Source: Candidatus Krumholzibacteriota bacterium (GTDB lineage: Bacteria > Krumholzibacteriota > Krumholzibacteriia > JAJRXK01). From it: a stretch of 34,831 bases of DNA. The first letter of the stretch is position 1; every line of letters begins with the position of its first letter. Location of the stretch: assembly GCA_024276305.1 (NCBI GenBank), contig JAJRXK010000012.1:1-34831 (forward strand). The letters run 5' to 3'. The notes below the pieces were generated by a model. It ran no database searches. It was given only the letters and a program-made list of their open reading frames with translations, and was not told the origin of the DNA. Shown here piece after piece: positions 1,446 to 27,991 of this stretch. Made by a program: the position numbers and the translations under genes.

Positions 1446-1446
<1 letters not shown>

Positions 1447-5179: not shown

Positions 5180-5262
5180 ATCGCTACCCCATTCGAGTGA
5201 TCTCAGCGGAAGAGATCCAGTCTAGCCTGGGCCCGAGAAAGCGTCCAGATCGACGAATGCGC

Positions 5263-6090
5263 TCAGGACAACAACATCCGGCGCACCACTCGACCGAGCA
5301 CCCAACTCCGGTAGCGAGCAGTCGAACGAAGATCGTCGATGGGGTGGGCTTCCCCGCGCGCCGCATCCGCCGCCGCTTCGGCCGTGGCCTTCCCCACGGC
5401 AGAACCCTCGAGGACCGCTTCCGCCGCACGAAGACGGATGGGCGTCGCGGCCACGCTCCCGGCCCCGATCCGCACCGAGGCCCATCTGCCCTCTTGGTTC
5501 TCCGCGCAGATGGCGACCACGACCTTGGAGATGGCCTGCGCTTGGCGAGTACCCACCTTGCGAAAGCTCTGGAATCCGGGAGCCGGGGGAAGAATCACCG
5601 CGGTCAGGAGCTCTCCTTCGCCCAGGGCGGTACGGCGATAGGCGGTGTGGAAATCCCGGAAGGGGATGCGTCGCCGTCCCTCGAGAGATGCCACTTCCAC
5701 TTCGGCATCGAGGGCCAAGAGGACCGGAAGACTGTCCCCGGCCGGTGAGGCGTTGACCACATTCCCCCCCAGAGTCGCTCGATTCTGGATCTGACGTCCC
5801 CCGACCTCCCCGGCGGCCTGGACCAGGACGGGATAGCTCTTGCGAACGAGCTCGTCCTGCTGCAAGTCCGAGAATGTCGTGGTCGCTCCGATCCGAAGTC
5901 CGTCGCCGTCGGATCGAATTCCCCGCAGCTCTTCCACTCGGAGCAGATCGAGGAGGGGAGGGATCTCGAATCCACTCGACCTGGCCCCGATCATCCAGTC
6001 CGTGCATCCGGCGATCGGAATGCAGGCCGGATCCTCGGACAAGCGCCGGAGAGCCTCCTCCAGAGTCCGTGGCGAGGACTGGGAGGTCAT
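5263..6090 (-). CDS. FAD-binding subunit of molybdenum hydroxylase (CoxM/YgfM-like)
   Basis: This 275-aa protein carries the FAD_binding_5 fold that passes electrons from the [2Fe-2S] clusters to the acceptor. Visible motifs are the first FAD loop (IPIAGCTDWM, usually AGGTD), the second loop NRATLGGNVVNASPAGD near the middle, and a CO-dehydrogenase-flavoprotein-type C-terminal domain. The length is normal and there is no insertion for a [4Fe-4S] cluster. The ATG was chosen because it overlaps the stop of the [2Fe-2S] gene (TGATG); a GTG one codon upstream is an alternative. It completes the three-subunit enzyme with the two genes upstream. It also sits directly before the fused hydroxylase, which has no flavoprotein of its own, so it may be shared. 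After its stop there are 83 non-coding bases in which I see no clear signal. Confidence 0.88.
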   Translation of the reverse strand: MTSQSSPRTLEEALRRLSEDPACIPIAGCTDWMIGARSSGFEIPPLLDLLRVEELRGIRSDGDGLRIGATTTFSDLQQDELVRKSYPVLVQAAGEVGGRQIQNRATLGGNVVNASPAGDSLPVLLALDAEVEVASLEGRRRIPFRDFHTAYRRTALGEGELLTAVILPPAPGFQSFRKVGTRQAQAISKVVVAICAENQEGRWASVRIGAGSVAATPIRLRAAEAVLEGSAVGKATAEAAADAARGEAHPIDDLRSTARYRSWVLGRVVRRMLLS

Positions 6091-6608
6091 CACGACTCCC
6101 TCTCCTCGGTGAGTTCCGGATCGGAGGGGTGAAGTGCGAGTTGGACTCGGTCCTTTCGACCACCCTCGGCTTCGATCGCTTTCACAATGGCCTCGTATCC
6201 CGTACACCGACAGATATTCCCCGCCAGAGCCCGCCGAATCCCATTTCGGTCGACCACTGGAGTCTCGGACAAATAGCGGGCAGCACTCAGGACGATGCCC
6301 GGAGTGCAAGCCCCACACTGCGTGCCCCCTCCGGCCGCGAAGCGCTCCAGGAATTGGGAGCCCCGAGTGGTGGCTTCGAGGCCCTCCACCGTGAACAACT
6401 CTCGACCGTCCAACTGCACCAAGGGGGTGAGACAAGAAAGCACCGCAGCGCCATCCATGAGAACGGTACAGGCGCCACACTCCCCTTCCCCACAACCCTC
6501 CTTGGTTCCGGTCAAGCGGAAATGGCGACGCAACAGATCGAGGAGTCGTTCGTCTCCCTGGCCTTCGACTTCGACGGGCCGACCGTTGAGGGTGAATGCC
6601 ACCCTCAT
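6090..6608 (-). CDS. [2Fe-2S] subunit of molybdenum hydroxylase
   Basis: This 172-aa protein is the electron-transfer small subunit of a three-part xanthine dehydrogenase-family enzyme. The N-terminal ferredoxin-like cluster uses C39, C44, C47 and C59 (CGEGECGAC). The helical domain cluster uses C98, C101, C133 and C135 (ICRCTGYEA). The length is standard for XdhC/CoxS/HcrC-type subunits. The ATG overlaps the stop of the Mo subunit (ATGA). A longer open frame exists upstream but lies inside the Mo subunit gene and shows no protein-like conservation, so this start is secure. The last 20 residues or so (ALHPSDPELTEERES) are an extra charged tail beyond the normal domain end. Confidence 0.92.
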   Translation of the reverse strand: MRVAFTLNGRPVEVEGQGDERLLDLLRRHFRLTGTKEGCGEGECGACTVLMDGAAVLSCLTPLVQLDGRELFTVEGLEATTRGSQFLERFAAGGGTQCGACTPGIVLSAARYLSETPVVDRNGIRRALAGNICRCTGYEAIVKAIEAEGGRKDRVQLALHPSDPELTEERES

Positions 6609-7162
6609 GATGCCCACCCCTCGTCCGCACCGTCGAGGATGCGCTCGGGAGTCGCTGGAATCCGATCCACCGCGATTCCGACGGCATTCTCGACCGCCGC
6701 GCATACGGCCGGAGCGATGCCATCCATCGGCAGTTCTCCCACCCCCTTCGCGCCGAAGGGAGGACCCTCCCAGGGCGCCTCCATCAACTCCACCTCCATC
6801 TCGGGAGCATCGAGAATGGTCGGAACGATATAGGTCGCCATGCGATCGTTCCGATAGTGTCCGTTCTCCACCTTCATCTCCTCGAGGAGGGCCCAGCCGA
6901 GACCCTGCAAGGTGCCGCCCTCGACCTGCCCCCGACACTGCACTTCATGGATGATTCTTCCCACTTCGGCCACCACCGTGGCCCGGGTGGCCTGCACTTC
7001 GAGGGTGTCCGGATCCACTTCTGCATCGACCACCTGCGCGGCGTAGGAATAGGTCGGATAGGCGAAACCGTGGTAGTGCTCTTCGTCGAAGATCTGCCAC
7101 TTTGGCGGCTCGTGCCGCACGTGATGTTCGGCCTCCCCTCCCGCCTCCAGATAGTCGAGCAC
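6605..7162 (-). CDS. C-terminal part of molybdopterin subunit, downstream of an in-frame TAG
   Basis: This is the last quarter of a xanthine dehydrogenase-type large subunit. It contains the second half of the Mo-binding domain, including GRIIHEVQCRGQVEGG and GAKGVGELP, which carries the catalytic Glu. It is in the same frame as the preceding 568-residue segment, separated only by a TAG at 7169-7171 and two codons. The GTG at 7160-7162 is the first possible start. The GGAGG just before it is only two bases away, too close for a normal ribosome binding site, so independent translation is doubtful. The two segments together (about 756 aa) equal a normal large subunit with nothing missing. I read this as one gene with a recent nonsense change, a sequencing error, or a readthrough codon. 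Confidence 0.7.
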   Translation of the reverse strand: MLDYLEAGGEAEHHVRHEPPKWQIFDEEHYHGFAYPTYSYAAQVVDAEVDPDTLEVQATRATVVAEVGRIIHEVQCRGQVEGGTLQGLGWALLEEMKVENGHYRNDRMATYIVPTILDAPEMEVELMEAPWEGPPFGAKGVGELPMDGIAPAVCAAVENAVGIAVDRIPATPERILDGADEGWAS

Positions 7163-7168
7163 GACCTC

Positions 7169-7171
7169 CTA
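7169..7171 (-). other. In-frame amber codon inside the Mo subunit gene
   Basis: The minus-strand codons read ...VSPF-TAG-EVVLDYL..., with the family sequence resuming at once in the same frame. A single C-to-T change from CAG (Gln) or G-to-A from TGG (Trp) would explain it. Neither flank shows decay. Confidence 0.9.
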
Positions 7172-9001: not shown

Positions 9002-10072
9002 TCAGGGCACAAGGACCACGCGTTTCTGCAACTTCCCCTGATGCGCGGCCTCGAAGACAGCATTGATGTCATCCAGGCTCCGCTTCTCGGCATATGCACT
9101 GACCCCGATCTTTCCCGCAGCCACCCACTCCAGCACCTCGGGGTAGAGGGCCGGATCACACCCCCAATTGCCGAAGGCGCGGGCATCGAAGGCCATGAAG
9201 TTGCTCAAACGCAATTCGACTTTGTCCATGGTGAAGCCCACGACGCTCAGGGTTGCGCCAAAGCTCAGCAATGCCATGGCGGTTTCCTGTCCCCTTCCGG
9301 TCCCAGAGGTTTCGTAGATCTTCCACAGGAATTTCGGCGCGCCGAGCGCCTTGGCCTCGGCGCGTACTGCATTCTTCACGTCCTTCACGGACATTCCGTC
9401 CACGTTGATCGCCGCGGCGGCTCCGGCCGACCTTGCGGCCGCCAATTTGGCGTCATCGACATCGAGAGCAATGACCTGAGCCCCTGCTGCGGCCGCGATC
9501 TGCACCCCGTGCACCCCGATCCCTCCCGCTCCGATGAAGACCGCCAGATCTCCGGATTCCAGACCCGACCGCTTCACGGCCTGGAAGGGAGTGGTTACCG
9601 CATCGGACACGATGGCCAGCTCCCAGAGAGCGGCCTTCTCGAGGACCCCTTCACCCACCGGACACACGTAGGGTGCGGGCACTACCACATGAGAGGCGAA
9701 GCCTCCGTGCCGATCGTTCCCCGGCATCACTTGGTGCCGGCAGATGCGACGTTCGCCTCGCTTGCAGAGCTCGCACTGACCGCAGGAGAGCACCGCCGGC
9801 ACGATCACCGATTGGCCCAGCAATGCGCGGTCGACCTCCGGCCCCACGGCAACCACGGTGCCCGATATCTCGTGCCCGAGCACCAAGGGGAGCTCCGCTC
9901 GAGTGGGCACTCCATGGTAGAGGAACGACAGATCCGTGTGGCAGACGCCGCATCCCGCGACCTCGACGGTGAGCTCTCCCGGGGCCGGGTCCTTCAGCGG
10001 AAGCTCTCGCTGCTCGAAGGGCGCCTCGGGCGCAGTCATCAGCCAAGCCTTCATGTTCTGCGGTACGTTCAT
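9002..10072 (-). CDS. had: 6-hydroxycyclohex-1-ene-1-carbonyl-CoA dehydrogenase-like zinc alcohol dehydrogenase
   Basis: This 356-aa medium-chain dehydrogenase has the catalytic zinc site C44-H-T-D and G-H67-E68, structural zinc cysteines C97, C100, C103 and C111, and the Rossmann motif GAGGIGVHG. From memory, its C-terminal half reads closely like Had of the anaerobic benzoyl-CoA pathway in Thauera and related bacteria, for example GATLSVVGFTMDKVELRLSN and MAFDARAFGNWGCDP. Had oxidises 6-hydroxycyclohex-1-ene-1-carbonyl-CoA to the 6-oxo compound with NAD+. The ATG overlaps the stop of the activase gene (ATGA). Its neighbours, a hadienoyl-CoA hydratase-like crotonase and a benzoyl-CoA-reductase-like protein, fit the same pathway. 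The ring-opening hydrolase Oah that normally accompanies Had is not in the window, so the true substrate may be a related cyclic CoA thioester. Confidence 0.8.
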   Translation of the reverse strand: MNVPQNMKAWLMTAPEAPFEQRELPLKDPAPGELTVEVAGCGVCHTDLSFLYHGVPTRAELPLVLGHEISGTVVAVGPEVDRALLGQSVIVPAVLSCGQCELCKRGERRICRHQVMPGNDRHGGFASHVVVPAPYVCPVGEGVLEKAALWELAIVSDAVTTPFQAVKRSGLESGDLAVFIGAGGIGVHGVQIAAAAGAQVIALDVDDAKLAAARSAGAAAAINVDGMSVKDVKNAVRAEAKALGAPKFLWKIYETSGTGRGQETAMALLSFGATLSVVGFTMDKVELRLSNFMAFDARAFGNWGCDPALYPEVLEWVAAGKIGVSAYAEKRSLDDINAVFEAAHQGKLQKRVVLVP

Positions 10073-10884
10073 GGGGTGACTTCCTCCTTGGCCACGAATG
10101 CCGTGAGTGCCGCACCATGGGCGGCGGTGTAGATGGGATCGGGCGAGACGGTGACCTCGATCGAGGCCAGAGCCTCGATTTGCGTGAGCACACCGGGGAA
10201 ATACTCGGGGACTCCCCCGGTGATCACCACCGGCGAGTGGTCGATCCCCAGTTCCAGAATGCGTTCGGCGATGGCGCGCATGCAGCCCAATGCGACGTCC
10301 TCCCGGGAGGCCCCCTCCCGGAGACGTTCGAGCAATTCATTCGACGAGAACACCGAACAGAAACTCGAAACCGACGCGGGCTCGTCCGCCTCGGCCGCGA
10401 GTTCCTGCATCCGAGTGGGATGCACATCGAGGTGACGAGCCGCGAACATGAGAAATGAACCGATCCCGGCGACGCACTTTCGCCCTCCGCGGGACCCCAC
10501 CAATTCACCAGCAGGGCCGACAGAGATCGCTCGCACCTCCCGGCCCCCGATGTCCACCACTGTCATCTGCTGGGGATGATGGAGATACGCACCCGCCGCA
10601 TGGGATCTGCTGGTCGACACCGTGCGCGTGGCCTTCGGGACGCAGCTCGCTCCGAATCCGGTGGACACGACCTCTTGCAGCTCCTCGAAGGAGCACTTGG
10701 CTTCTTCCAGAGTCGCCTTGGTCACTTCCTCGACACAGGTTTCGAAATATCCCTGGGTCGGCACACTGGTGCGGGCAACGATCTTGCGCTGATCGTCGAG
10801 CATGACCGCCTTGACGCATTCGGTCCCGACATCCACTCCCAGAACCATTCCTGGGTCATCGGAACCCTTCGATGATGAACTCAT
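10069..10884 (-). CDS. BadF/BcrA/HgdC-type ATP-dependent activase
   Basis: This 271-aa ASKHA ATPase belongs to the family that uses ATP hydrolysis to push a low-potential electron into 2-hydroxyacyl-CoA dehydratases, benzoyl-CoA reductases or double-cubane cluster proteins. It shows the nucleotide motif GVDVGT (16-21), DIGG (111-114), and the two cysteines, C137 (RKCVAGIG) and C176 (SSFCSVF), that in this family bind one [4Fe-4S] cluster bridging a homodimer. Only one activase-type subunit is present, as in HgdC/YjiL systems. The four-subunit Bcr/Bad enzymes have two. The ATG overlaps the stop of the upstream HGD-D fusion (ATGA), which identifies that protein as its likely partner. The 12-residue Ser/Asp-rich N-terminal extension is unusual but harmless in appearance. 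Confidence 0.88.
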   Translation of the reverse strand: MSSSSKGSDDPGMVLGVDVGTECVKAVMLDDQRKIVARTSVPTQGYFETCVEEVTKATLEEAKCSFEELQEVVSTGFGASCVPKATRTVSTSRSHAAGAYLHHPQQMTVVDIGGREVRAISVGPAGELVGSRGGRKCVAGIGSFLMFAARHLDVHPTRMQELAAEADEPASVSSFCSVFSSNELLERLREGASREDVALGCMRAIAERILELGIDHSPVVITGGVPEYFPGVLTQIEALASIEVTVSPDPIYTAAHGAALTAFVAKEEVTP

Positions 10885-13145
10885 GTCGCCTCACTCGAAG
10901 AGAGGATTTGGGATTCGAGAAACTCGCCCAGCTGCCTTTCGAGGTGAGAAATCGAAACCAGTCGCATGTCATGACTGTCCGCCTCGATGATCAGGGACGG
11001 CAATCCCGTCTCTCTACGCATCTGCACTGCAAGTCCTTGGCGAACATTGCTGTACTGCGGCGAGGTACGACCCTCATGGTAAATGACCGCATCCACCCCA
11101 AAGGCTTCGAATTCGGCCGCGAGGACGTGGGTCTTGTACGAGGCCGATCGATTGGGAAAGACCATGGTATAAGCGGCGGCCATGCTCTCGATGGGATTTC
11201 GGTCGTCCAACCCAGCCAGCGAGAAATTGGTGAAGAAGCTCGACGCGATGACCGCGACCTTGCGCTGGAGAAAGAGCTCCGACAACGAGCGGAGCGCACT
11301 CCAGATCGGCGGCCCTTCCCAGTAGAAACGATGACGTTCTCCCGGCACCGCGGCCTGCTGATCTGCGACCCTCTTCTCGACCTCTTCCTTGAGAATCTGA
11401 TAGTAGTCGATGGCCTCCGGTGTTCCCCGCATGAGCACCATGGGAGCAAAGTGAACCAAGAGATCAAAGACGGTCAGGGGCGAGGGCGTGGCCCTGGTCA
11501 TCTGCAGGATCTCTTCCCACAGAGTGGCGGCCCGGGCCGAGTTCGCGACCACCTCCCCCAAGAAGTCCATGTCCATGGCCTCACCGGTCAGATGCTCGAA
11601 ACGGTCCACCAAGTGCAGCATCTGTTGGGTCGCGGCATCGAGATCGACCTGGTCGATATCACCCAGCGCGGCGGGAGGATGGAGCCCGAATACCGGAACA
11701 TCGAATCGACTCCCGTAGTAGTCGAACCACTCGATGAGATTGTGACCACTATTCGTGCTGTAGACCACGAGGTCTGGCGTCGGAGGTCCAGAAATGCCGT
11801 AGGCCGAGACCAACGGGCTGTCTCCCGCGAGCATCGCACCCACATCACAGGCCATTCCCGAATGAATCGACTGCGAGAATCCCTCGGCGAGCGCGCGTTG
11901 GATGTAGCGATTCGAAGTCCGGCTCGCGCCGATCAACGCGGCGTGGTTTTCGGGGAAATAGGGCGTCATCCCGAAGGCCCGCACGATCTCCACCGGACCC
12001 ATTCCCGAACAACAGGCGACTCGTCGCCGAGGATCTCGGTCGGCCGCTTCGAGATCCAGGAAGTACCCTCGCACGAGTTCCTTGAGGCGACCTGCGCACT
12101 CCAGCGGAACGCGGCCGGAGGCCATTCCCCCTCCCTCTCCCAACTCCATCGCCTTGACTTCGGTTTCGTGGTCCTTGTCTCGCTTCGACCGCTCCACCGA
12201 TTGAGAGATTTCTCTGCGCCGGGTGATCTTCTGACGCTCGCGGGAGTGAATGAACTGAACCAGAGCGCGATTGTGCGGAGCATCGAGACCGAGGCGCTCG
12301 GCTTCCTCGACGATGGCCCCGTTGATGGCATCGATCTCCGTGCGGGTTCCCCGGGCGAGATCCTGCCACATGGAGGGACGATTCTTGTCGAGGGCGGTCA
12401 AGGATCCGATGACCGGACGGAATGGATCCTCTTCGTCCACGATCGGTACGCCGCGAGCCCGCATGACGGCAATGATCTCGCCACAGAGAGCCCGCATGAA
12501 CTCCATCATGTCCTCGTCACCAAGCAGCTCTCGGCAGTTCAAACCGGTCACTGCGGACACCGGGTTCACCACCGCATTGTGGAGCAATTTCTGCCAAGTG
12601 GAGTGGTCCACGCTCTCGACCACTTCGGTATCGAGACCCGAACGGCGAAACGTCTCCCCGATGGCCTGGACCCGATCGCTGATCTTTCCATCATATGGCG
12701 CGATCTGAATCGGTTTGATCCCGCGGCGAAAGCGGAGCCGATTGGGGCCGACATGCTGAATGCTGTGGTAAGTGATCCCGCAGAGCACCTTCTCCGGGCC
12801 GATCAGTTCGGCCATGGTGGCCGTGTTTCCGATCCCGTTCTGAAGTGAAAGCATCAGGGTGTCATCCCCCACTACCGGGAGCAATCCACGAACCGCGGCT
12901 TCGGTCTGATAACTCTTCACCGAGACAAAGATCAAGTCCATCGGCTCGAGTCCATCGACAGAGGTCACCACCCGGAGCGGGACATTGCGCTCCTCCCGGC
13001 CCTCGGTCAGAAACAGTCCGGTGTCCGATAGCAACTTGGCACGAGCGGGGTTGATCTCGATTACCGTCGTGTCCTGTCCGGCCAGACTGAGATGGGCTGC
13101 GACCATTCCGCCCAGGGCCCCTGCCCCTACCACCAGGATCTTCAT
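10881..13145 (-). CDS. Fusion of ketopantoate-reductase-like and benzoyl-CoA reductase/2-hydroxyacyl-CoA dehydratase-like domains
   Basis: One uninterrupted frame of 754 aa. Residues 1 to about 305 form a PanE/ApbA-type reductase: NAD(P) loop GAGALG (7-12), catalytic-type Lys at about 186 in WQKLLHN, and the SMWQDLARGTRTEID segment. A basic, charged linker follows (about 303-340). Residues from about 345 to 754 belong to the HGD-D family (HgdB/FldC/BcrB/BadE): VACCSGMGPVEIVRAFGMTP, VYSTNSGHN and, near the end, YHEGRTSPQYSN. The ATG at 13145 has GGAGG five bases upstream. Related HGD-D proteins bind a [4Fe-4S] or double-cubane cluster and work with the activase encoded next. Two readings are possible: reductive dearomatisation of an aryl-CoA, or reduction of a 2-oxo group by the first domain followed by radical dehydration of the 2-hydroxyacyl-CoA by the second. 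Usual partner subunits are absent. Domain calls are firm; the reaction is inference. Confidence 0.85.
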   Translation of the reverse strand: MKILVVGAGALGGMVAAHLSLAGQDTTVIEINPARAKLLSDTGLFLTEGREERNVPLRVVTSVDGLEPMDLIFVSVKSYQTEAAVRGLLPVVGDDTLMLSLQNGIGNTATMAELIGPEKVLCGITYHSIQHVGPNRLRFRRGIKPIQIAPYDGKISDRVQAIGETFRRSGLDTEVVESVDHSTWQKLLHNAVVNPVSAVTGLNCRELLGDEDMMEFMRALCGEIIAVMRARGVPIVDEEDPFRPVIGSLTALDKNRPSMWQDLARGTRTEIDAINGAIVEEAERLGLDAPHNRALVQFIHSRERQKITRRREISQSVERSKRDKDHETEVKAMELGEGGGMASGRVPLECAGRLKELVRGYFLDLEAADRDPRRRVACCSGMGPVEIVRAFGMTPYFPENHAALIGASRTSNRYIQRALAEGFSQSIHSGMACDVGAMLAGDSPLVSAYGISGPPTPDLVVYSTNSGHNLIEWFDYYGSRFDVPVFGLHPPAALGDIDQVDLDAATQQMLHLVDRFEHLTGEAMDMDFLGEVVANSARAATLWEEILQMTRATPSPLTVFDLLVHFAPMVLMRGTPEAIDYYQILKEEVEKRVADQQAAVPGERHRFYWEGPPIWSALRSLSELFLQRKVAVIASSFFTNFSLAGLDDRNPIESMAAAYTMVFPNRSASYKTHVLAAEFEAFGVDAVIYHEGRTSPQYSNVRQGLAVQMRRETGLPSLIIEADSHDMRLVSISHLERQLGEFLESQILSSSEAT

Positions 13146-13179: not shown

Positions 13180-13953
13180 TCAACGGTTCTTCCACTGGGG
13201 CCGGCGTTTCTCGAAGAATGAGGCAATGCCTTCCCGGACGTCTTCGGTCTGCATGAGTTCCTCGAGGAACACCGTCTCGGCCTTTTGACGCGCTTCTTCG
13301 AACGACATTCCCTCGAGTTCCTTGAGCATCCGTACGTTCATCCTCAAGACCAGCGGACTCGCCTTGCGAAAATCGTCGAGAACCCCCTCCATCGTCTCTT
13401 CGAGTCGGTCGCGATCGACAACGCGAGAGACCAGTCCCCAATCTGCGGCCTCCGATGCGGAGTAGCTTCGCCCCCCGCAGGTGATTTCCAGAGCCCGGGA
13501 TCGACCTACGAGGCGCGAGAGCCAGGCCACTCCCACCGGGGCGAAGAATCCCAGACGGATTTCGGGTTGACCGAATTTCGCGCGATCGGTCGCGATGAGC
13601 ACATCGGCCATCATCACCAGCTCGAAACCCGCCCCGAGGGCTGCGCCATCGACCGCCATCACCACCGGGATTTCGAGTGCACCGAAGGCCCGGAACATCT
13701 CGGAAAAGGCCGCGATCATCTCCGGCGCATGCTCCGGACGATGCTCCCCCACATCTGCTCCCGCCGAGAAGGCCTTTCCTTCGGCGGACAGGGCCAGGGC
13801 TTTCAGCTCTGGGTTCTCCGCCGCGGCCCCGACCGCAGCGCTGATCTCGTGCATCATCTCTCCGGTGAGGATGTTCAGCGGCGGTGCCGTCAGACGAAGG
13901 TATCCCACGTCTCCTCGAAGCTCGTAGCTCGTGAGTTCGGTCTTGGTATTCAT
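13180..13953 (-). CDS. Enoyl-CoA hydratase family protein, cyclohexa-1,5-dienecarbonyl-CoA hydratase-like
   Basis: This 257-aa crotonase has the CoA-binding FSAGADVGEH motif, the second oxyanion-hole segment GAALGAGFELV and FGQPEIRLGFFAP. The combination of ADVGEHRPE with GQPEI-LGFFAP is what I remember from dienoyl-CoA hydratases (Dch) of anaerobic aromatic degradation, which add water to the diene made by benzoyl-CoA reductase. That places it one step before Had, two genes downstream. The length fits Dch and is too short for the ring-opening Oah. The start ATG follows GGGGAAG at suitable distance. It lies 16 bp after the DUF35 gene and 34 bp before the PanE-HGD-D fusion. A generic enoyl-CoA hydratase is the alternative. 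Confidence 0.78.
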   Translation of the reverse strand: MNTKTELTSYELRGDVGYLRLTAPPLNILTGEMMHEISAAVGAAAENPELKALALSAEGKAFSAGADVGEHRPEHAPEMIAAFSEMFRAFGALEIPVVMAVDGAALGAGFELVMMADVLIATDRAKFGQPEIRLGFFAPVGVAWLSRLVGRSRALEITCGGRSYSASEAADWGLVSRVVDRDRLEETMEGVLDDFRKASPLVLRMNVRMLKELEGMSFEEARQKAETVFLEELMQTEDVREGIASFFEKRRPQWKNR

Positions 13954-13969
13954 CGATCATCTTCCCCAT

Positions 13970-14395
13970 TCATGAATCGGCCTCGACTTCGTAGTACACC
14001 CGCAACTCATCATTCACCTCCGAGCGGCAGGGATTCAACCGCACCGAAGTCCCCAGGGAGAGCTCCCCCACGTCGAGCCCGGCTCCCGCGAGGGCCAAGG
14101 CTCGTCCGCCTTCCTCCAGATCGACGAGCACCAGGGAATAGGGAACCCACTCCTCGAGTCCCACCGGCGCAGCCCGAATGGTCGTGAAGCTCGAAACCCT
14201 TCCCCGGCCGGAAATCTCGACCCATTCGAGGTCTCCGCTCCGGCACACCACGCAATCCGCACGCGGTGGAAAACTCTGTTCTCCACAACTCGCACAACGA
14301 GAGGCGAGCAGCCGACCTTCGACCAAACCGGCTACGAAAACGTCGCCAACTTTGGTGTGCGAAGTGAAGGACACCAAACCGAAGGACTCGAACAT
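13970..14395 (-). CDS. DUF35 Zn-ribbon/OB-fold protein, thiolase partner
   Basis: This 141-aa protein has a rubredoxin-like zinc ribbon with C34, C37, C48 and C51, followed by an OB fold (GRGRVSSFTTI..., VLVDLEEGGRALA). Proteins of this family form complexes with SCP2-type thiolases or HMG-CoA synthases and are thought to bind the acyl-CoA. One example is BbsA, partner of the benzoylsuccinyl-CoA thiolase BbsB in toluene degradation. The ATG at 14395 starts one base after the thiolase stop. A longer frame starting inside the thiolase gene is not needed and was not used. Confidence 0.85.
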   Translation of the reverse strand: MFESFGLVSFTSHTKVGDVFVAGLVEGRLLASRCASCGEQSFPPRADCVVCRSGDLEWVEISGRGRVSSFTTIRAAPVGLEEWVPYSLVLVDLEEGGRALALAGAGLDVGELSLGTSVRLNPCRSEVNDELRVYYEVEADS

Positions 14396-14396
14396 C

Positions 14397-15551
14397 TCAC
14401 TCCCTCCGAAACACGTTGACGAAGCAATACTGACCGATTCCCCCCACGTTGTGGGTGAGTCCCACATCCGCCCCCGACACCTGACGATCCTCGCACTCCC
14501 CGCGCAGTTGACGGACGATCTCCACTGCCATCGATACGCCCGTCGCTCCGATCGGATGACCCTTCGCTTTCAGACCTCCATCGACATTCACCGCGATGCG
14601 CCCTCCGATGCGAGTCTCTCCCGCCGCGATGAAGGGCCCGCCCTGGCCTCGGTCACAGAATCCCAGATCTTCCACCGCCAGAATCTCTGCGATGGTGAAG
14701 CAGTCGTGAACATCGGCGACTCGGACCTGCGAAGGCTCGATCCCCGCCATGGCGTAGGCCTGGCGCGCCGCCTCGACCGCAGAAGGCAGAGTGCAGAGAT
14801 CCTCTCGCCGCAGTACGGACATGGGGGCGGTGGCGACTCCCAGGCCGTCGAGCCATACCACCCGATCCGAAATCTCACGGGCCCGTCCCTCGGCGGCCAG
14901 AATCAGACAGGCCGCGCCATCGGCATTCGCACAACAGTCGAAGACTCTGAGCGGATCGGCCACGAGCTTGGAATTCTCCACCTTCTGGCGGTCGATGGTC
15001 TTCCGAAACATCGCCTTGGGATTCAATGCGCCGTAGTCATGGTTCTTCATCGCCACCGCGCTGAGATGGTCACGCGTGGTCCCGTGGCGATCCATGTGCT
15101 GACGAGCGAAGAGGGCGTAATAGCCGGGGAAGGTCGACCCGAAGACCGATTCCCACTGCACGTCTCCCACCCTCCCCATGAGACCCAGAATCGCCGCGGT
15201 TTCGAGCTCGGTCATCTTCTGACAACCCATGACCAGGACGACATCCTGCATCCCCGAGGCGACCGCGGTCCACGCGGTGTGCAGCGCCGCGGAACCCGAG
15301 GCGCAGGCGGCTTCGGTGAGCCATGTGGGCCTGGGATCGAGCCCGAGGTATTCCTGGATCACCCCCGCAACCGACCTCTGCTTATGATATTCGGGGACGC
15401 TGCCGATCCAGGTCGCTCCGATCTCCTGGGGATCGATTGCCGCGTCGGCCACCGCTTCTCGGTAGACCTCGAAGGCGAGTTCCTGCAAGGAGGCATCGTC
15501 GCGCAGGCCGAAACGCCCGTGCCCAACTCCTATGACCCCAACCCTTCTCAT
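14397..15551 (-). CDS. Thiolase (SCP2/archaeal type) paired with DUF35 protein
   Basis: This 384-aa thiolase has the nucleophilic Cys C83 in EAACASGSAAL, the GHPIGATG motif with the active-site His, and HNVGG near the C-terminus in place of the CxG motif of classical FadA/PhaA thiolases. That C-terminal form is typical of SCP-x/archaeal thiolases that work with a DUF35 protein, which is the next gene. It probably cleaves, or reversibly forms, a beta-ketoacyl-CoA. The ATG has a strong GGAGGG upstream. With the SDR before it and the crotonase after it, it makes a beta-oxidation-like set comparable with the bbs genes. Its specificity cannot be read from sequence. Confidence 0.88.
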   Translation of the reverse strand: MRRVGVIGVGHGRFGLRDDASLQELAFEVYREAVADAAIDPQEIGATWIGSVPEYHKQRSVAGVIQEYLGLDPRPTWLTEAACASGSAALHTAWTAVASGMQDVVLVMGCQKMTELETAAILGLMGRVGDVQWESVFGSTFPGYYALFARQHMDRHGTTRDHLSAVAMKNHDYGALNPKAMFRKTIDRQKVENSKLVADPLRVFDCCANADGAACLILAAEGRAREISDRVVWLDGLGVATAPMSVLRREDLCTLPSAVEAARQAYAMAGIEPSQVRVADVHDCFTIAEILAVEDLGFCDRGQGGPFIAAGETRIGGRIAVNVDGGLKAKGHPIGATGVSMAVEIVRQLRGECEDRQVSGADVGLTHNVGGIGQYCFVNVFRRE

Positions 15552-15583: not shown

Positions 15584-16333
15584 TCAGATGTACTGGCCCC
15601 CATCCACTCGCAGAACTTCACCGCTGATGTGCTGGGCCACCTCGGAGCAGAGGAAAGTCACGACTCCAGAGATGTCCTCCGGACGAGCGAGGCGTCCCAC
15701 TACACTCTCGGCCCGCGCCGCTTCCAAGAACTCATCGGGAATCGATCGGGCCATGTCGGTCAACACCAGACCCGGAGCCACGCAGTTCACCGTGACCTGG
15801 AAGCGACCCAACTCGCGAGCCAAGCTCTTGGAGAGGGCGATGACCCCGCCTTTGGAAGCCGCATAGTTCGCCTGCCCGAACTTGCCACGCATCCCATTGA
15901 TCGACGTGATGTTGACGATGCGTCCCCAATCCCGCTCTCGAAATCGAAGCGCTGCGGCTCGGTTGTAGTTGAACACACCTTTGAGATTCACATCGATGAC
16001 CTCGTCGAATGCCTCTTCGGACATCTTCCACGAGACGCTGTCCCTGGTGATCCCGGCACAACAAACGAGAACATCCAGCCCTCCGAACTCCTCGGTGAAT
16101 TCTGCGACCACGGCTTCGGCGGCCGAGAAGTCCCGGACATCGGTGGCGAAGACTTTCCCTCTCCCCCCACTCCGACTCAGGCTTTGGGCGACCGCAGAAG
16201 TGGCTTCGCAGGAGGGATGGTCCACCAGGCCCAGCGCGCAACCTTCCCGCGCCAAATCTCTCACGATCGCGGATCCGATTCCGCCGCCCGCCCCGGTGAC
16301 CAGAGCCGCCCTCCCCTTCAATCCCAGATCCAT
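15584..16333 (-). CDS. Short-chain dehydrogenase/reductase (FabG-like)
   Basis: This 249-aa classical SDR has the NAD(P) motif TGAGGGIG (13-20), CCAGIT, the serine region ITSINGM and the catalytic YAASK. It probably interconverts a 3-hydroxyacyl- and 3-oxoacyl-CoA ahead of the thiolase encoded next. The ATG overlaps the stop of the xdhC-like gene (TGATG). The frame is open further upstream, but that part is a low-complexity Gly/Arg/Ser shadow of xdhC. Asp/His after the second strand (VDHPS) suggests NAD rather than NADP, with low certainty. Confidence 0.9.
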   Translation of the reverse strand: MDLGLKGRAALVTGAGGGIGSAIVRDLAREGCALGLVDHPSCEATSAVAQSLSRSGGRGKVFATDVRDFSAAEAVVAEFTEEFGGLDVLVCCAGITRDSVSWKMSEEAFDEVIDVNLKGVFNYNRAAALRFRERDWGRIVNITSINGMRGKFGQANYAASKGGVIALSKSLARELGRFQVTVNCVAPGLVLTDMARSIPDEFLEAARAESVVGRLARPEDISGVVTFLCSEVAQHISGEVLRVDGGQYI

Positions 16334-17196
16334 CACGCCCCTCCCGCCATCGAGTCGGCCTCGCGGTGACGCTCCGCCACGAGCTCCGCCACGATGCTGA
16401 CCGCCACTTCGCCCGGCTCTCGGCCCCCAATGGGCAGACCGATCGGAGACCGAAGCTTTTCGAGACGCTGGATCGCAGCGTCGTCCACCCCCAGCTCGCG
16501 GCGCACCCGAGCCACCTTCGACTTGCTGCCGATCATGCCCAGATAGCACCAGGGGCGGTGCAAACACGCTCGCACTACGATCGAATCCGTGGCGTGACCG
16601 TAAGTGACAATCACCACATAGGTGTCCTCGTCGAAGGTCAGTCGATCGACCGCTTCGGCAAAAGGCATGTTCAAGATGTGGAATCGGGGGCCCAGGGTCG
16701 CCAGCGGTGCGTAGTCCTGACGATCGTCGATCACTGTGACCTCGAATCCGGCGGCGTGGGCCATGGGAGCCAGGGCGAGTCCAATGTGTCCAGCGCCGAA
16801 GAGGTGCAATCGAGGCCGTCGCGGACCCGGCTGCACGAAGAACTCACACCGCCCCACGCAGGACTTCTCGATGTTGCGCTGCGGTCCACCGGTGAAATCG
16901 AAGCGGTAGCGGCGTGGCCTCCCATCGGCAATCGCCTCTCGGGCATGATCGATCATCAGCAACTCGAGATTGCCGCCGCCCACGGTGCCGACGATGCTTC
17001 CGTCCTCTCTCACCATCATCGCCGCCCCCATCCCCCGAGGAACCGACCCTTCGGCTCCCACCACCGTGACCAAGGCCACTCCTGCGCCCTGGGTGGTCGC
17101 CGAGGCGAAGGCCCGAATGGCCTCCATGCCCGGGCTCTCCTGGGCATCTCCCAGGGCAACGAGAGGATCCGGTCCATTGCCTCTGCCTGCGTTCAT
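16333..17196 (-). CDS. xdhC: XdhC/CoxI-family molybdenum hydroxylase maturation protein
   Basis: This 287-aa protein has both XdhC parts. The N-terminal part carries GSVPRGMGAAMMV and GTVGGGNLE. The C-terminal Rossmann domain carries LFGAGHIGLALA, IDDR and YLGMIGSKSK. XdhC proteins bind molybdenum cofactor and help replace an oxo ligand with the sulfido (or selenido) ligand needed by xanthine dehydrogenase-type enzymes before insertion. The usual CGG segment after the GGG motif is changed here to KSCVGRC. The ATG overlaps the mocA-like stop (ATGA). Its position in the middle of the cluster fits service to all three hydroxylases encoded around it. Confidence 0.9.
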   Translation of the reverse strand: MNAGRGNGPDPLVALGDAQESPGMEAIRAFASATTQGAGVALVTVVGAEGSVPRGMGAAMMVREDGSIVGTVGGGNLELLMIDHAREAIADGRPRRYRFDFTGGPQRNIEKSCVGRCEFFVQPGPRRPRLHLFGAGHIGLALAPMAHAAGFEVTVIDDRQDYAPLATLGPRFHILNMPFAEAVDRLTFDEDTYVVIVTYGHATDSIVVRACLHRPWCYLGMIGSKSKVARVRRELGVDDAAIQRLEKLRSPIGLPIGGREPGEVAVSIVAELVAERHREADSMAGGA

Positions 17197-17817: not shown

Positions 17818-18462
17818 TCATTCCTTTCCGCGCACCTGCGCTTCGAGCCCACCCATCACGAACTCTGCCATTTCATCGGCGAGCTGCGCCACGGGAACAT
17901 CCTTCTCCGGCTGGTACCACATGAAGACCCAATTCAACGCGCCGAAGATGAAGAGGGTCAGATGGCGAACCCGCGTCACCGACCTCCGGTCCGAAGCTCC
18001 GATTCCGAGGATCTCTGCCACCAGTCCCGCGGTGAGTCGATAGTAGCGCCGACGCAGGTCTTCGATCGCCTCGTAGGAGTCGCCCCGCAACGACTCGAGT
18101 TCGTAAGTGCAGACTTTCATTTCTCCCGCATGGGCCTGGAAGAAGGCGAGATGGGTGGCAATGACCTCCTTCAATCGCTGCCGCGGGTCGGCGATCGCAG
18201 CGGCCTGAGCTTCCTGCTCCGCAAGGAGCCTCGAGAAGGTTCCATGTTGGATCTGGTATAGAAGGTCTTCCTTGCTCTCGAAGTAGTAGTACATTCCGGC
18301 CAGACTGAAGCCCGTCTCACGAGCCACATCCCGAATCGATGTCTGGCTGTAACCTTGGCGCGCCATCAACCCAGCCGCCGCCTCGAGCAAGCGTTCGAGC
18401 TTCTGCTCCTTGGTCAAGCGGGACCCTCCGTTGGTCGTCGACTCGCGCGCCGCGTCGGTCAC
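17818..18462 (-). CDS. TetR-family transcriptional regulator
   Basis: This 214-aa protein has an N-terminal TetR helix-turn-helix at about 20-66 (SIRDVARETGFSLAGMYYYF followed by ESKEDLL) and an all-helical ligand domain, as in FadR/PaaR-type repressors that sense acyl-CoAs. The start is GTG, overlapping the stop of the fused hydroxylase as GTGA, with GGGAG upstream. The frame is open much further, but that part is a shadow. Its place inside the operon suggests autoregulation. A 22-bp inverted repeat overlapping the probable promoter upstream of the first gene is a candidate binding site. The ligand is unknown. Confidence 0.9.
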   Translation of the reverse strand: MTDAARESTTNGGSRLTKEQKLERLLEAAAGLMARQGYSQTSIRDVARETGFSLAGMYYYFESKEDLLYQIQHGTFSRLLAEQEAQAAAIADPRQRLKEVIATHLAFFQAHAGEMKVCTYELESLRGDSYEAIEDLRRRYYRLTAGLVAEILGIGASDRRSVTRVRHLTLFIFGALNWVFMWYQPEKDVPVAQLADEMAEFVMGGLEAQVRGKE

Positions 18463-21299
18463 GAGGTGCTCCCTTCCTGGGCTTCCTTGGCCTTGATTGC
18501 GGCGAGGATCTTCTCGGGAGTGATCGGCAGGGAGGTGATCCGGGCCCCGCATGCGTCGTAGATCGCGTTCGCCAGCGCCCCCATCGCGGGCAGCATCGAC
18601 CCTTCGCCGATCTCCTTGGCCCCGAAGGGTCCCCGTGGCTCGTAGCTCTCGACGACTCCGGTGTGGATCTCCGGAACATCGGCGATGGTGGGAATGAGAT
18701 AGTCGTGGAGGTTGGGATTCCTCAACCTTCCCCCCTCCGCGAAGACCGTGTCTTCGAGAAGACCTTCCCCGATGCCCATGATGATCGCACCCTCGACCTG
18801 TCCGTGGAAGGTGACTGGATTCACCACCGTTCCAGCATCGGAATAGTCGGTGAATTTCTCCACCGTCACGTAGCCGGTCTCCTTGTCGACCGTGACTTCG
18901 CAGACTGCAGTCGAAAAACTGTAGGCTGGCGAGGTCCCCACGGTGCTTCCCTTGAACCCGCCTCCGAGATTCTTGGGCGGACGATAATGGCCCGTTCCCA
19001 CCACCGGTCCATTCTTGGCGAAGGCCATGCGTCCAGCCTCGGCCCAGCTCATCTTCTTTTCCGGATACTCTCGAATGAAGATCTGGCCACCGACCGCGAC
19101 CAATCCCCCCGGATCGCAGCCCAGCCACTCACCTGCCGCCGCAAGCACCTGCTTCTTCACCTCCGCCGCCGCCATCTTGACCGCATTGCCGGCCATCAAC
19201 GTGACCCGGCTGGAATAGGATCCGAGGTCCAGAGGACTGAGAACCGTATCGCAATCCACCATCCACACTTGGTGATAGGGAATTCCCAGCTCTTCGGCAG
19301 CGATCTGTGTCAGCACGGTATCCGAGCCCTGGCCAATCTCCGAGGCCGCAATGTGCAACGAGACCCCGGTCGCATCTTCGTGGACTCGAATCACCGCGTT
19401 CGAATGGGGGAAGTCCGAACGATAGATCGGATAGCCTGCGCCGGAGACGAATCCTCCACAACCCACACCGATACCGCGCCCCTCGGGGAGATTGCCCCGG
19501 CGTTGCTTCCACTCGGATTTTTCTTCCGCCGCTTCGAGGGTGGCCATGAACTCGCACGAAGAGATGTCGAGGGCATTCACCGTCAGATAGTTCGGCTCCA
19601 TCGCATTGCGCTTGCGAATCTCGATGGGGTCGATCCCCAGTTCTTCGGCGATCATGTCCAACAGAGACTCGAAGGCAAACCGAGGGTGAGGAACTCCGTG
19701 GCCACGAAAAGCTCCCGACGCCGGCAGGTTCGTGTACACCCGAATTCCCCGATAGCGGTAGTTCTCGATCTTGTAGAGGGTCGGAACCATGGACCCGGCG
19801 TAGTAGGCGGTGATGACCCCGAAGGAAGTGTAGGCTCCCCCGTCGAGAAGAATGTCGCTCTTCACGCCCTGGATCTTCCCTTCGCGATCGACCGCGATTT
19901 CGAGATCCATGTACTGCTTGTGGCGTCCGCGGAAGTGATGGACCATTTCCTCGCGGCTGTACTCCATCTTCACCGGACGACCGGTCTCTTTGGCCAGGAT
20001 CGCGGCACACAATTCGAGGGGAGTGGTCTCCGCTTTGACTCCGAAACCGCCCCCCACCGCGGGGCGAATGACCCGGATGTCGCCCATGGGGATTTCCAGG
20101 GTGCGTGAAAGCATCTGATGGAGGTAGTGGGGAGTCTGGGTCGAACTCCAGATCGTGAGCTTGTTGCCGTGGTGCTCCCACCTCGCAATCGAGGCGTGAG
20201 TTTCGATCGGACTCTGGTAGGTGCGATTCCCCACGAAACGCTGCTTGCGCACCAGATGAGCCTCGGCGAAGGCTCGGTCCACATCACCGAAGTCCCACTC
20301 CACCTTGGTGTTGATGTTGCCGGCGTAGCGCTCTTTCTCGGGATGAATCACCGGTGCCCCGGGCGCCATTGCCGCATCGGGATCGAAGACTGCGGGCAGC
20401 TCCTCGTATTCGACTTCGATGAGGGAAATGGCCTGCTCGGCCGTGGCCTCGTCTACCGCAGCCACGGCCGCAACTTCATCGCCCACATAGCGCACGCGTT
20501 CCTTGGCCAAGATCTGCTCGTCGTAGCGCGCCGGACTCACTCCGTAGTAGTTGTCCGTGACGTCGCTCCCGGTGATCACGGCCATCACTCCCGGCAGCTC
20601 GCGGGCCTTGGATACATCGATTCTCTTGATGATCCCGTGAGCAATGGGCGAGCCCAAGATCTTCCCGTGAATCATCCCCGAGAGCTTGATGTCCGCGGTG
20701 TACTTGGCTCGGCCGGTGACTTTGTCCGGGCCGTCATAGCGGGTCACCCCGTGGCTGACGACATGATGATCCCGCTTCTGCTCGCGCTCGGCTTCTGCGG
20801 CCTTCAGCGCTTCGGTATCGAGGGGAGTGTCGGCGAAGTCCTCCCGGTGCCGGATGGCCTCGAGAATGCGGGGGTAGGTGCCGCACCGGCAGAGATGGCC
20901 CGAGAGTGCGGTCTTGATCTCTTCGTCCGAAGGATTCGGATTCTCGTCGACCAGAGCCTTCGAAGACATCAGCATTCCGGAGGTGCAATACCCGCATTGC
21001 AGCGCACCGTGCTTCACGAAGGACTTCTGCAGGGGATGCAGCTCCCCTCCCTCAGCCAGGCCCTCGACGGTGGTGATCTCCGCTCCATCGGCCTGTACCG
21101 CCAGCAGCAGACAGGAATTCACCGGTTTTCCATTGACGAGCACCGTGCAGGAACCGCAGTCCCCCATGCCGCAACCCTTCTTCGTCCCGGTCAAGTCGAG
21201 ATGCTCGCGCAAGGCATCGAGAAGAGTGGTGTTCGGAGAGATGCCCAGGGTGCGCTCGTCCCCATTCACCTTCAGCCGGATCAGGACTTCGTGGGTCAT
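18459..21299 (-). CDS. Fused [2Fe-2S]/molybdopterin hydroxylase resembling 4-hydroxybenzoyl-CoA reductase
   Basis: This 946-aa protein has the N-terminal iron-sulfur domain with C43, C48, C51 and C63, then C102, C105, C137 and C139. It is fused to the hammerhead and molybdopterin domains, including GGGFGVKAETTP, SGAFRGHGVPHPRFAF and GAKEIGEGS with the catalytic Glu. Segments such as CGGFVSGAGYPIYR, SREEM...GRHKQYMDLEI and TAYYAGSM read to me like the alpha subunit of 4-hydroxybenzoyl-CoA reductase, which removes a phenolic hydroxyl, or close hydroxylases. In that enzyme the iron-sulfur subunit is separate, so the fusion is a difference. Its FAD subunit is the gene upstream, overlapping by ATGA. 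The reaction may be reductive dehydroxylation or hydroxylation of an aromatic CoA ester or N-heterocycle. Only the family is certain. Confidence 0.87.
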   Translation of the reverse strand: MTHEVLIRLKVNGDERTLGISPNTTLLDALREHLDLTGTKKGCGMGDCGSCTVLVNGKPVNSCLLLAVQADGAEITTVEGLAEGGELHPLQKSFVKHGALQCGYCTSGMLMSSKALVDENPNPSDEEIKTALSGHLCRCGTYPRILEAIRHREDFADTPLDTEALKAAEAEREQKRDHHVVSHGVTRYDGPDKVTGRAKYTADIKLSGMIHGKILGSPIAHGIIKRIDVSKARELPGVMAVITGSDVTDNYYGVSPARYDEQILAKERVRYVGDEVAAVAAVDEATAEQAISLIEVEYEELPAVFDPDAAMAPGAPVIHPEKERYAGNINTKVEWDFGDVDRAFAEAHLVRKQRFVGNRTYQSPIETHASIARWEHHGNKLTIWSSTQTPHYLHQMLSRTLEIPMGDIRVIRPAVGGGFGVKAETTPLELCAAILAKETGRPVKMEYSREEMVHHFRGRHKQYMDLEIAVDREGKIQGVKSDILLDGGAYTSFGVITAYYAGSMVPTLYKIENYRYRGIRVYTNLPASGAFRGHGVPHPRFAFESLLDMIAEELGIDPIEIRKRNAMEPNYLTVNALDISSCEFMATLEAAEEKSEWKQRRGNLPEGRGIGVGCGGFVSGAGYPIYRSDFPHSNAVIRVHEDATGVSLHIAASEIGQGSDTVLTQIAAEELGIPYHQVWMVDCDTVLSPLDLGSYSSRVTLMAGNAVKMAAAEVKKQVLAAAGEWLGCDPGGLVAVGGQIFIREYPEKKMSWAEAGRMAFAKNGPVVGTGHYRPPKNLGGGFKGSTVGTSPAYSFSTAVCEVTVDKETGYVTVEKFTDYSDAGTVVNPVTFHGQVEGAIIMGIGEGLLEDTVFAEGGRLRNPNLHDYLIPTIADVPEIHTGVVESYEPRGPFGAKEIGEGSMLPAMGALANAIYDACGARITSLPITPEKILAAIKAKEAQEGSTS

Positions 21300-22192
21300 C
21301 GCTCTCCCCCTCCCGTCATTGCGCCTTCCCTCGCCCTCCCGAGAGCTTGGCGCAGCGCCCGCCGGGTCAATACGGTCACGATTTCGCGGCGATAGTCAAC
21401 GCTGCCTCGGAGATCGGTGATCGGCTGCGCATCGGTCGCAGCCGCCCGAGCCGCCTCCTCGAAGACTTCGTCGGTCGCGGTCGCCTTCTCCAGGACGCCA
21501 ATACTGGCCTTCGCCACGATCGGGGTTGGGCCCACGGCCCCGAGGGCGACCCGCGCCCCATTGATCCGATCTCCCTCGACCTCCAGACCCACGGCCACCG
21601 AGGCCACGGCCAGAGCCAATCCCTTCCTCAAGGTGAATCGTTGAAAGCTCGTTCCCGAATGGGCGGGCCGGGCGGGAATCCGGATGCAGCGCAGAATCTC
21701 CCCGGTGTTCAGAGCGGTGACCCGGGGCGCAGTGATGAAGGCGGCGGCATCGATCTCGCGCTCTCCCTCCCCATTGGTCACCACCGCCACCGCTCCTCCG
21801 GCGATGCTGGCGGGAGGCGTGTCGGCGCAGGGGACTCCGCCGCACCAATTGCCTCCGATCGTGGCCTGACTGCGGACCTGGTGTCCCCCAATGGAACTGG
21901 CCGCGTCGCTCAGAGCCGCCAGGTGTGTTCGGACCAGCGGGTGGACCGCAACCTCGGCGTGGGTGGTCAGAGCGCCGATTTCGATGCCGCCATCCACCTC
22001 CCGGATCCCTCGAAGTTCCTCGATCTGCGCCAGCGAGATGAGGTCGGTCGCGGGCCGGAGACGCCGCTTCAGATCCGGAACCACGTCGGTCCCCCCGGCC
22101 AGAAACAGAGCCCCTTCCCCCAATTCCCGCGAGAGGGAACAGGCCTGGGCCAAGGTGGTCGGCCGGTGGAATGCGAAATCCCCTATGTGCAT
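21296..22192 (-). CDS. FAD-binding subunit of molybdenum hydroxylase, first gene of the cluster
   Basis: This 298-aa FAD_binding_5 protein has the FAD loops LFLAGGTDVVPDLKR and QATIGGNWCGGVPCADTPP and a normal C-terminal domain. It should form a complex with the fused hydroxylase encoded next. In true 4-hydroxybenzoyl-CoA reductase, the beta subunit has an extra loop of about 40 residues holding a [4Fe-4S] cluster after the second FAD loop. That insertion is absent here, so the electron path is the ordinary one. The ATG lies downstream of a likely promoter and operator at 22263-22310, making this the first gene of the long minus-strand operon. Confidence 0.9.
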   Translation of the reverse strand: MHIGDFAFHRPTTLAQACSLSRELGEGALFLAGGTDVVPDLKRRLRPATDLISLAQIEELRGIREVDGGIEIGALTTHAEVAVHPLVRTHLAALSDAASSIGGHQVRSQATIGGNWCGGVPCADTPPASIAGGAVAVVTNGEGEREIDAAAFITAPRVTALNTGEILRCIRIPARPAHSGTSFQRFTLRKGLALAVASVAVGLEVEGDRINGARVALGAVGPTPIVAKASIGVLEKATATDEVFEEAARAAATDAQPITDLRGSVDYRREIVTVLTRRALRQALGRAREGAMTGGGER

Positions 22193-27240: not shown

Positions 27241-27245
27241 CCCCA

Positions 27246-27782
27246 CTACCCAATCGACTTTTCGGGAACGCGGACGGATTGGCGTTCCATCTCGCGCGCC
27301 AGCCACGCGCGTGCGAGCGCCCAGTCCTTGACGATCATGTCCTTCGAGCTGCCGATGTGATCGGCAATCTCGTCTTCGGTCAATCCTCCGAAGATCATCA
27401 TCTCGGCGATCAGGCCCACCTGCTCGCTCCTCGCCTCGAGCCTGGACAGGGCACGATCGATGTCCAGAATCCTCACCGCGTGGTTCGGCCCCACACGAGT
27501 CTCATCCTGAAGAAGGATTCGGGATCCCGATCCAGATTCGGAAGCTCGTTCCTCCTCCTGGACGACCGCCACCAGAGCCCTCCGCATGGCTCGTGCGACA
27601 GCCGTCGCCAGAATCTGGCGATTGCCGACTTCCAGGCTGTCCAAGAGCTTGCGAACCACATCGTTGGCGAGCACCGTCGGTTGAACCAAGCTATCGACAT
27701 CGTCACCACGCAGGTATCGTCGAGCCATGATCCGGAGCTCGTCATAAGCACGACGATGGTATTCTTCAGCGTTGGACTTCAT
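27246..27782 (-). CDS. ECF-type RNA polymerase sigma factor, kinase-linked
   Basis: This 178-aa protein resembles the ECF sigma group common in Acidobacteria and Planctomycetes that sits beside Ser/Thr kinases. Region 2 begins YDELRIMARRYL; region 4 has LTEDEIADHIGSSKDMIVKDWALARAWL. The typical region-2 stretch (TLQPTALVHEAYLRL in relatives) reads SLVQPTVLANDVVRKLL here, somewhat diverged. I chose the ATG at 27782; the open frame continues upstream but that part looks non-coding, and no strong ribosome binding site is visible. No anti-sigma factor is encoded nearby, which fits control by the kinase encoded next. The 209 bp upstream are shared with the divergent small gene and should hold both promoters; I could not pick boxes with confidence. 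Confidence 0.83.
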   Translation of the reverse strand: MKSNAEEYHRRAYDELRIMARRYLRGDDVDSLVQPTVLANDVVRKLLDSLEVGNRQILATAVARAMRRALVAVVQEEERASESGSGSRILLQDETRVGPNHAVRILDIDRALSRLEARSEQVGLIAEMMIFGGLTEDEIADHIGSSKDMIVKDWALARAWLAREMERQSVRVPEKSIG

Positions 27783-27991
27783 GACGATGCAAAGACTCCG
27801 ATCGAGTGTCACTGTGAATCCGAGAATCGAATCAATAGTACCAGTTTCGGGAACCTTCGTCAGGCAAAGGCCTTGGATATCCGACGGCCCTTCGAGAAAA
27901 CGAGACGATTCGATTTTTCTGGAATTCACTCCAAGATTCGGCACACTGGGCATCTGACTCTGCCCGACCACCCCTGGGGAGGATTCCGCCC

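Follow-up and report, generated by a model that had tools for sequence, protein, structure and literature searches.

Can one protein reduce a 2-oxo acid and then remove water from the product? The question is raised by a minus-strand gene, here called FUS, in contig JAJRXK010000012.1 of a Candidatus Krumholzibacteriota bacterium, of which a stretch of 34,831 nucleotides was analyzed (the window). A preliminary description, made from the letters of the sequence, had noted that the FUS product joins a ketopantoate reductase (KPR)-type domain to an HGD-D domain, the fold of 2-hydroxyacyl-CoA dehydratases and benzoyl-CoA reductases (BCR). The fusion proved to be real. Its HGD-D half has lost all the cysteines expected to hold the metal cluster, and an intact relative, PAR, is encoded on another contig of the same genome.

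The fusion gene and its distribution

The frame of FUS runs unbroken, as the preliminary description had it, from an ATG at 13145 to a stop codon at 10881-10883 and encodes 754 amino acids; an alternative reading from a TTG start would give 781. A GGAG-type ribosome site is located immediately 5′ of the ATG at 13145, and the same ATG is preceded likewise in relatives. A domain-architecture search matched all three expected Pfam families in the one protein, each nearly over its full length: PF02558 (ApbA, E 5e-33), PF08546 (ApbA_C, E 1e-33) and PF06050 (HGD-D, E 4e-47). In the 781-residue reading they span residues 30-179, 207-329 and 410-772.

Homologues of FUS in other genomes are full length, free of internal stops and 57-64% identical throughout. 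We looked among them for two separate genes or a frameshift and found one continuous frame crossing the junction in 11 genomes (G000, G007, G017, G024, G029, G038, G068, G072, G075, G078 and G085), which represent 10 genera; the copies of G011, G146 and L034 stop at contig ends. The linker is basic, as had been described, and also rich in Ala and Pro. Counted between the FIHS motif and the Met that opens the HGD-D domain, it has 42-62 residues across the homologues, always in frame and with lengths differing by multiples of three. Because the frame spans the junction in so many genera and the variable linker stays in frame, the fusion is not a frameshift artefact. A stop lost or a frame shifted between two genes in sequencing or assembly might be suspected, since each half is known elsewhere as a separate family and the Met at 12123-12125, where the HGD-D domain starts, is kept in most homologues, but the homologues rule this explanation out and its likelihood is negligible. 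The Met is probably a relic of the start codon used before the fusion. Internal initiation at this codon was considered and rejected: although most homologues keep the Met, the ribosome-site-like stretch before it is not conserved.

FUS was detected, at the threshold used, in 11 of 80 genomes examined from the class. The carrier G085 does not belong to the phylum-level group that includes the window's genome, and a scan of genome contigs revealed a single named relative, a metagenome-assembled genome of Acidobacteria. Plasmid and phage collections yielded only KPR-type or distant HGD-D proteins and no fusion among the matches listed, viral contigs gave no fusion match, and a search of the phylum around G103, comprising three genomes only, found nothing. 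Within the literature that was searched, to which this result is confined, we found no paper that pairs the two family names.

Domains, lost cluster ligands and the sister protein PAR

The KPR domain scored 245.6 bits with TIGR00745 (cut-off 141.35). The GxGxxG motif and residues N103, K186, N190, N194, S258 and E270 do not vary among the fusion homologues that include them; the Asn, Lys, Ser and Glu among them are the catalytic residues known from E. coli PanE. Also invariant is the acidic E30 at the end of beta-2. An acidic residue at the end of the second Rossmann strand points to NAD(H), while NADPH enzymes have a basic residue there, so that E30 suggests a preference for NAD(H). To judge by its residues, the domain is apparently a working NADH-type keto-acid reductase. 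The structures of its relatives are deposited under the names 2-dehydropantoate 2-reductase or ketopantoate reductase; one of them, 3WFI, is a D-mandelate dehydrogenase. The PanE/ApbA enzymes, 3WFI among them, share with the fusion both Pfam domains and the catalytic Asn, Lys, Ser and Glu; unlike them, the fusion has a C-terminal HGD-D domain, an acidic residue in place of the basic NADPH residue and a place in an aromatic-catabolism operon.

The HGD-D domain was assigned with 161.9 bits by PF06050 (cut-off 28.4). The preliminary description called both domains complete. This holds for the fold, which is covered nearly in full, but not for the metal site. The nearest solved relative of the domain is HadB, whose Cys84, Cys117 and Cys346 (numbered by counting along the aligned 3O3M chain) we take to be the cluster ligands, in agreement with their match to BzdO. 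In BzdO, Cys95, Cys128 and Cys380 bind the active-site [4Fe-4S] cluster (PMC11971306). None of the 12 fusion homologues has Cys at any of these three positions (one is truncated before the first), and no Cys is invariant in their HGD-D domains; the residues found instead are given in Table 1. All three cysteines are retained in 13 of 13 PAR proteins and in every BcrB copy. With every ligand gone in every homologue, the sequences indicate that the fused HGD-D half alone cannot be the catalytic subunit of a dehydratase or reductase. Nevertheless, the motifs PENHAAL and RFYWEGPPIW and the equivalent of the BzdO acid Glu65 are kept. Equivalog scores are all below cut-off: 134.9 bits for HadB (cut-off 750) and, for BCR, 109.5 against 486.55 (TIGR02260) and 63.3 against 448.6 (TIGR03191). 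Annotation by the HGD-D profile alone would miscall FUS as a dehydratase or a benzoyl-CoA reductase.

The closest relative of the fused HGD-D domain is PAR, a separate HGD-D protein that is 38% identical and keeps all three cysteines. In the window's genome it is encoded on contig C47, together with the activase ACT2, an ADP-forming acyl-CoA ligase and a sodium/solute symporter; bcrCBAD is on C47 as well. The nearest solved structure to PAR is the alpha subunit of 2-hydroxyisocaproyl-CoA dehydratase, HadB (E 6e-47), followed by MbdO and BzdO. In a tree of 58 HGD-D sequences, a quick tree with some long branches elsewhere, the fusions and the PAR proteins each form their own clade, and the two are sisters with 100% support in the Shimodaira-Hasegawa-like approximate likelihood ratio test (SH-aLRT). 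The joint group is placed near HadB-like alpha subunits (82% support) and away from both BcrB and BcrC. In G085 and G146 the genes for 6-hydroxycyclohex-1-ene-1-carbonyl-CoA dehydrogenase (Had), ACT2, PAR, ACT1 and the fusion follow one another uninterrupted (the G146 fusion is cut at the contig end), and in G029 and G075 the PAR and fusion operons are about 7 kb apart. The left ends of the window and of C47 (L024), positions 1-565 in both, have 565 bp in common with 96% identity and in inverted orientation; given this repeat at both contig ends, the two contigs may be neighbours.

PAR, ACT2, the ADP-forming ligase and the symporter form a compact four-gene module in G012, G015, G022 and G026 (L042-L045), genomes that apparently have an HGD-D enzyme without a beta subunit. 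A standalone KPR gene near the PAR island of G026 was considered as the unfused ancestor and rejected: it is only 25% identical and adjoins an acetoacetate-CoA ligase gene.

ACT1, the activase of the fusion locus, has a start that overlaps the end of FUS and is itself overlapped by the next gene, so that this series looks like one operon. Alignment showed that ACT1 and ACT2 both retain the two activase-cluster cysteines. The conserved DIGG motif is mostly GGRE or GGRD in ACT1 and GGQD in ACT2 and BcrA; ACT1 may be the specialised half of a mixed activase dimer.

Possible functions of the fusion and PAR

The reading we favor, tentatively, is that FUS and PAR form a two-part, two-activase 2-hydroxyacyl-CoA dehydratase for aryl-2-oxo or aryl-2-hydroxy acids that feed the benzoyl-CoA pathway. 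Candidate substrates are, for example, arylpyruvate and aryllactate derived from aromatic amino acids or phenylpropanoids. With NADH, the KPR domain would turn the 2-oxo acid into the (R)-2-hydroxy acid, and the ADP-forming ligase encoded beside PAR would make the CoA ester; in a variant, ligation would come first and the 2-oxoacyl-CoA would be reduced. The ACT1/ACT2 pair would then inject one high-energy electron and PAR would eliminate water at its three-Cys [4Fe-4S] site, with the cluster-less HGD-D domain of the fusion as its structural or CoA-binding second subunit. The hydratase, the short-chain dehydrogenase and the thiolase with its OB protein would shorten the side chain to the aryl-CoA, at which point the 4-hydroxybenzoyl-CoA-reductase-like enzyme and a separate benzoyl-CoA reductase could take over for dehydroxylation and ring reduction. 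The earlier proposal of reduction followed by elimination of water thus survives in part. The conserved KPR residues are in line with it and so are the genes nearby, namely the ADP-forming CoA ligase, a second HGD-D protein, two activases, hydratase, dehydrogenase and thiolase; but the fused HGD-D domain cannot dehydrate alone, and the intact catalytic candidate is the separate protein PAR.

The fold of the fused domain is common to HadBC (PDB 3O3M; (R)-2-hydroxyisocaproyl-CoA dehydratase) and FldBC (phenyllactyl-CoA dehydratase). These enzymes need an ATP-dependent activase, such as the one encoded beside the fusion, and in fermentations they act after a 2-oxo acid reductase and CoA activation, as in the proposed route. 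Their reductase is a separate gene, whereas here it is fused, and their alpha and beta subunits each have a cluster, whereas here there are two alpha-like paralogues, one without ligands. In a dehydratase one electron is recycled through many rounds of catalysis, while BCR needs a continuous supply (PMC11971306); the loss of one cluster should therefore be better tolerated in a dehydratase. A route of the same order, in which reduction and dehydration precede beta-oxidation to benzoyl-CoA, has been proposed for an anaerobic benzene degrader: 2-oxo-3-phenylpropanoate, its CoA ester, 2-hydroxy-3-phenylpropanoyl-CoA, cinnamoyl-CoA and benzoyl-CoA (PMC13416013). That route is hypothetical, its dehydratase has no gene assigned, and the passages of the paper that concern it describe no fusion. 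PMC9765128, searched for side-chain enzymes, yielded nothing usable.

Several points weigh against a dehydratase composed of FUS and PAR. The complex and its substrate, like the direction of the KPR reaction and the order of the steps, are inferred. KPR enzymes are known to act on free acids and HGD-D proteins on CoA esters, so that ligation to CoA is needed between the two reactions. The side-chain hydratase is not uniquely identified, because the operon hydratase (13180..13953) is also the best candidate for the dienoyl-CoA hydratase of the ring pathway: it is the best match to cyclohexa-1,5-diene-carbonyl-CoA hydratase in the genome, below the family cut-off. The fusion gene lies between the ring-cleavage genes Had and Oah, a position that would fit a role in ring reduction too. 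Finally, in G012, G015, G022 and G026, where there is no fusion, PAR is the sole HGD-D gene found; PAR therefore seems able to work without the fusion or a second type of subunit, presumably as a homodimer.

A more detailed proposal is possible but doubtful. It would pair two alpha-type paralogues in a heterodimer, one of them a metal-free pseudo-subunit that carries its own NADH-dependent 2-hydroxyacid dehydrogenase; 2-oxo reduction would be physically coupled to radical dehydration, the activase would be a mixed ACT1/ACT2 enzyme and the ancestor would have been a PAR-only enzyme without a beta subunit. Both component families are known; to the extent that this could be tested, the novelty lies in their combination, in the loss of every ligand and in the pairing of two alpha-type proteins. 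To our knowledge, solved catalytic HGD-D dimers have a metal cluster in both halves. A conserved subunit that lost its cluster and acquired a reductase domain, apparently a working one, would help to show the purpose of the second cluster, and it would be a candidate for the still unassigned steps from arylpyruvate to cinnamoyl-CoA in anaerobic aromatic degradation.

Ring reduction is encoded separately. In the window's genome bcrC, bcrB and bcrD score above curated cut-offs and bcrA is a strong match in a fragment read. G085 contains a BzdO match scoring 654 bits; a pair in G072 clusters with the G085 Bzd proteins in the HGD-D tree and is probably Bzd; BamB is present in G029; and in G012, which has PAR and no fusion, BamB adjoins PAR. 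G075 yielded no more than an HGD-D fragment as a possible BCR. Because nearly all fusion genomes hold a recognisable BCR of a different kind (Bcr, Bzd or BamB), and with its scores below cut-off and its ligand cysteines missing, the fusion was rejected as a benzoyl-CoA reductase. The alternative raised in the preliminary description, that the first domain supplies or recycles a cofactor for ring reduction, is disfavored on the first of these grounds, ring reduction being an unlikely task for the fusion.

Another possibility, which we consider unlikely, is that FUS, PAR, ACT1 and ACT2 are a further kind of ATP-dependent aryl-CoA reductase whose substrate is a substituted or hetero-aromatic acyl-CoA; the KPR domain would then act on the product after dearomatisation. 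Two HGD-D proteins and two activases mirror BcrCBAD, and class I BCRs in general (BcrCBAD, BzdNOPQ, MbdO) combine such a set with ring-cleavage enzymes, as here; moreover, the set is flanked by a Dch-like hydratase and Had and has Oah upstream, an arrangement also seen for ring-reduction genes. Yet the fusion differs from class I BCRs in the missing ligands and in scores far below the equivalog cut-offs, the electron-storing double-cubane cluster of the second BzdNO subunit (PMC11971306) is absent here, PAR groups with HadB rather than BcrB, and PAR occurs in G015, where Oah was not found.

It is about equally improbable that the fusion acts without PAR, the degenerate HGD-D domain being a holder or docking module for CoA esters and the KPR domain alone reducing or oxidising CoA-bound 2-oxo- or 2-hydroxyacyl groups. 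The invariant KPR residues would suit such a role, as would an HGD-D domain that lost its ligands and conserved its motifs and the Glu65 equivalent; but ACT1 keeps its cluster cysteines and overlaps FUS, which points to a role with an electron-accepting partner.

That the KPR domain is the ketopantoate reductase with which the cell makes CoA, and that its attachment to an HGD-D remnant is accidental, might be supposed from the failure to find a second KPR gene in the window's genome, but it is very improbable and was rejected: a KPR match was missing from 57 of 78 genomes in the class, which therefore seems to have another way to pantoate, the fusion is located in an aromatic operon, and E30 suggests NAD, not NADP.

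Gene neighbourhood and other observations

The genes around FUS are listed in Table 1. The short-chain dehydrogenase, thiolase, OB protein, hydratase, TetR regulator and molybdenum enzyme are kept alongside the fusion in relatives. All 11 fusion genomes of the class have Oah, and in several it stands directly upstream of the fusion operon. The fusion operon serves anaerobic aromatic breakdown.

Table 1. Features of the FUS locus, with positions in the window
Feature	Position	Strand	Evidence
Fusion gene (FUS): KPR + linker + HGD-D, 754 aa	10881..13145	minus	frame, Pfam, homologues, GGAG site
KPR-type oxidoreductase domain, residues 1-302	12240..13145	minus	PF02558/PF08546, TIGR00745, catalytic residues
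Variable basic/Ala-Pro-rich linker	12126..12239	minus	alignment of homologues
HGD-D domain, residues 341-754, without cluster ligands	10884..12125	minus	PF06050 E 4e-47
H428, at HadB Cys84 / BzdO Cys95 position; S/N/H in fusion family	11862..11864	minus	alignment
G467, at HadB Cys117 / BzdO Cys128 position; always G in fusion family	11745..11747	minus	alignment
S695, at HadB Cys346 / BzdO Cys380 position; S/A/T in fusion family	11061..11063	minus	alignment
ACT1, ATP-dependent activase (BcrAD/HgdC type)	10069..10884	minus	PF01869; TIGR00241 140 bits, over cut-off; alignment
6-Hydroxycyclohex-1-ene-1-carbonyl-CoA dehydrogenase (Had)	9002..10072	minus	TIGR03201 447 bits, cut-off 339
Enoyl-CoA hydratase family protein	13180..13953	minus	profile matches
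OB-fold/zinc-ribbon thiolase partner (ChsH2/BbsA type); true start probably further in	13970..14467	minus	profile matches
Thiolase (PRK06064 subfamily, BbsB-like)	14397..15551	minus	profile matches
Short-chain dehydrogenase (FabG-like); true start ~16320	15584..16567	minus	
TetR-family regulator, conserved in operon	17818..18426	minus	
Molybdenum hydroxylase, FeS subunit fused	18459..21299	minus	4-hydroxybenzoyl-CoA reductase alpha best match, 931 bits, below cut-off 994.6
FAD subunit of that molybdenum hydroxylase	21296..22192	minus	

Elsewhere in the window, an in-frame TAG on the minus strand at 7169-7171 splits a molybdenum-hydroxylase subunit into 568 and about 187 amino acids in the same frame; the gene may have decayed, the stop may be a sequencing error, or it may be read through. 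A lone in-frame TAG in an otherwise open frame was also seen in the KPR genes of G040, G050, G054 and G060 and in Oah of G072:C460, for which read-through of TAG or pyrrolysine use in this lineage may be considered. The region 1446-6723 encodes a Se-dependent xanthine-dehydrogenase-type protein (890 bits, cut-off 830), a FAD subunit and an SsnA-like aminohydrolase, and is probably a separate purine or N-heterocycle module beside the aromatic operon. Two Ser/Thr protein kinase genes and two genes for sigma factors of the extracytoplasmic function (ECF) type (PF07638) are located at 24742-30328, beside the catabolic region.

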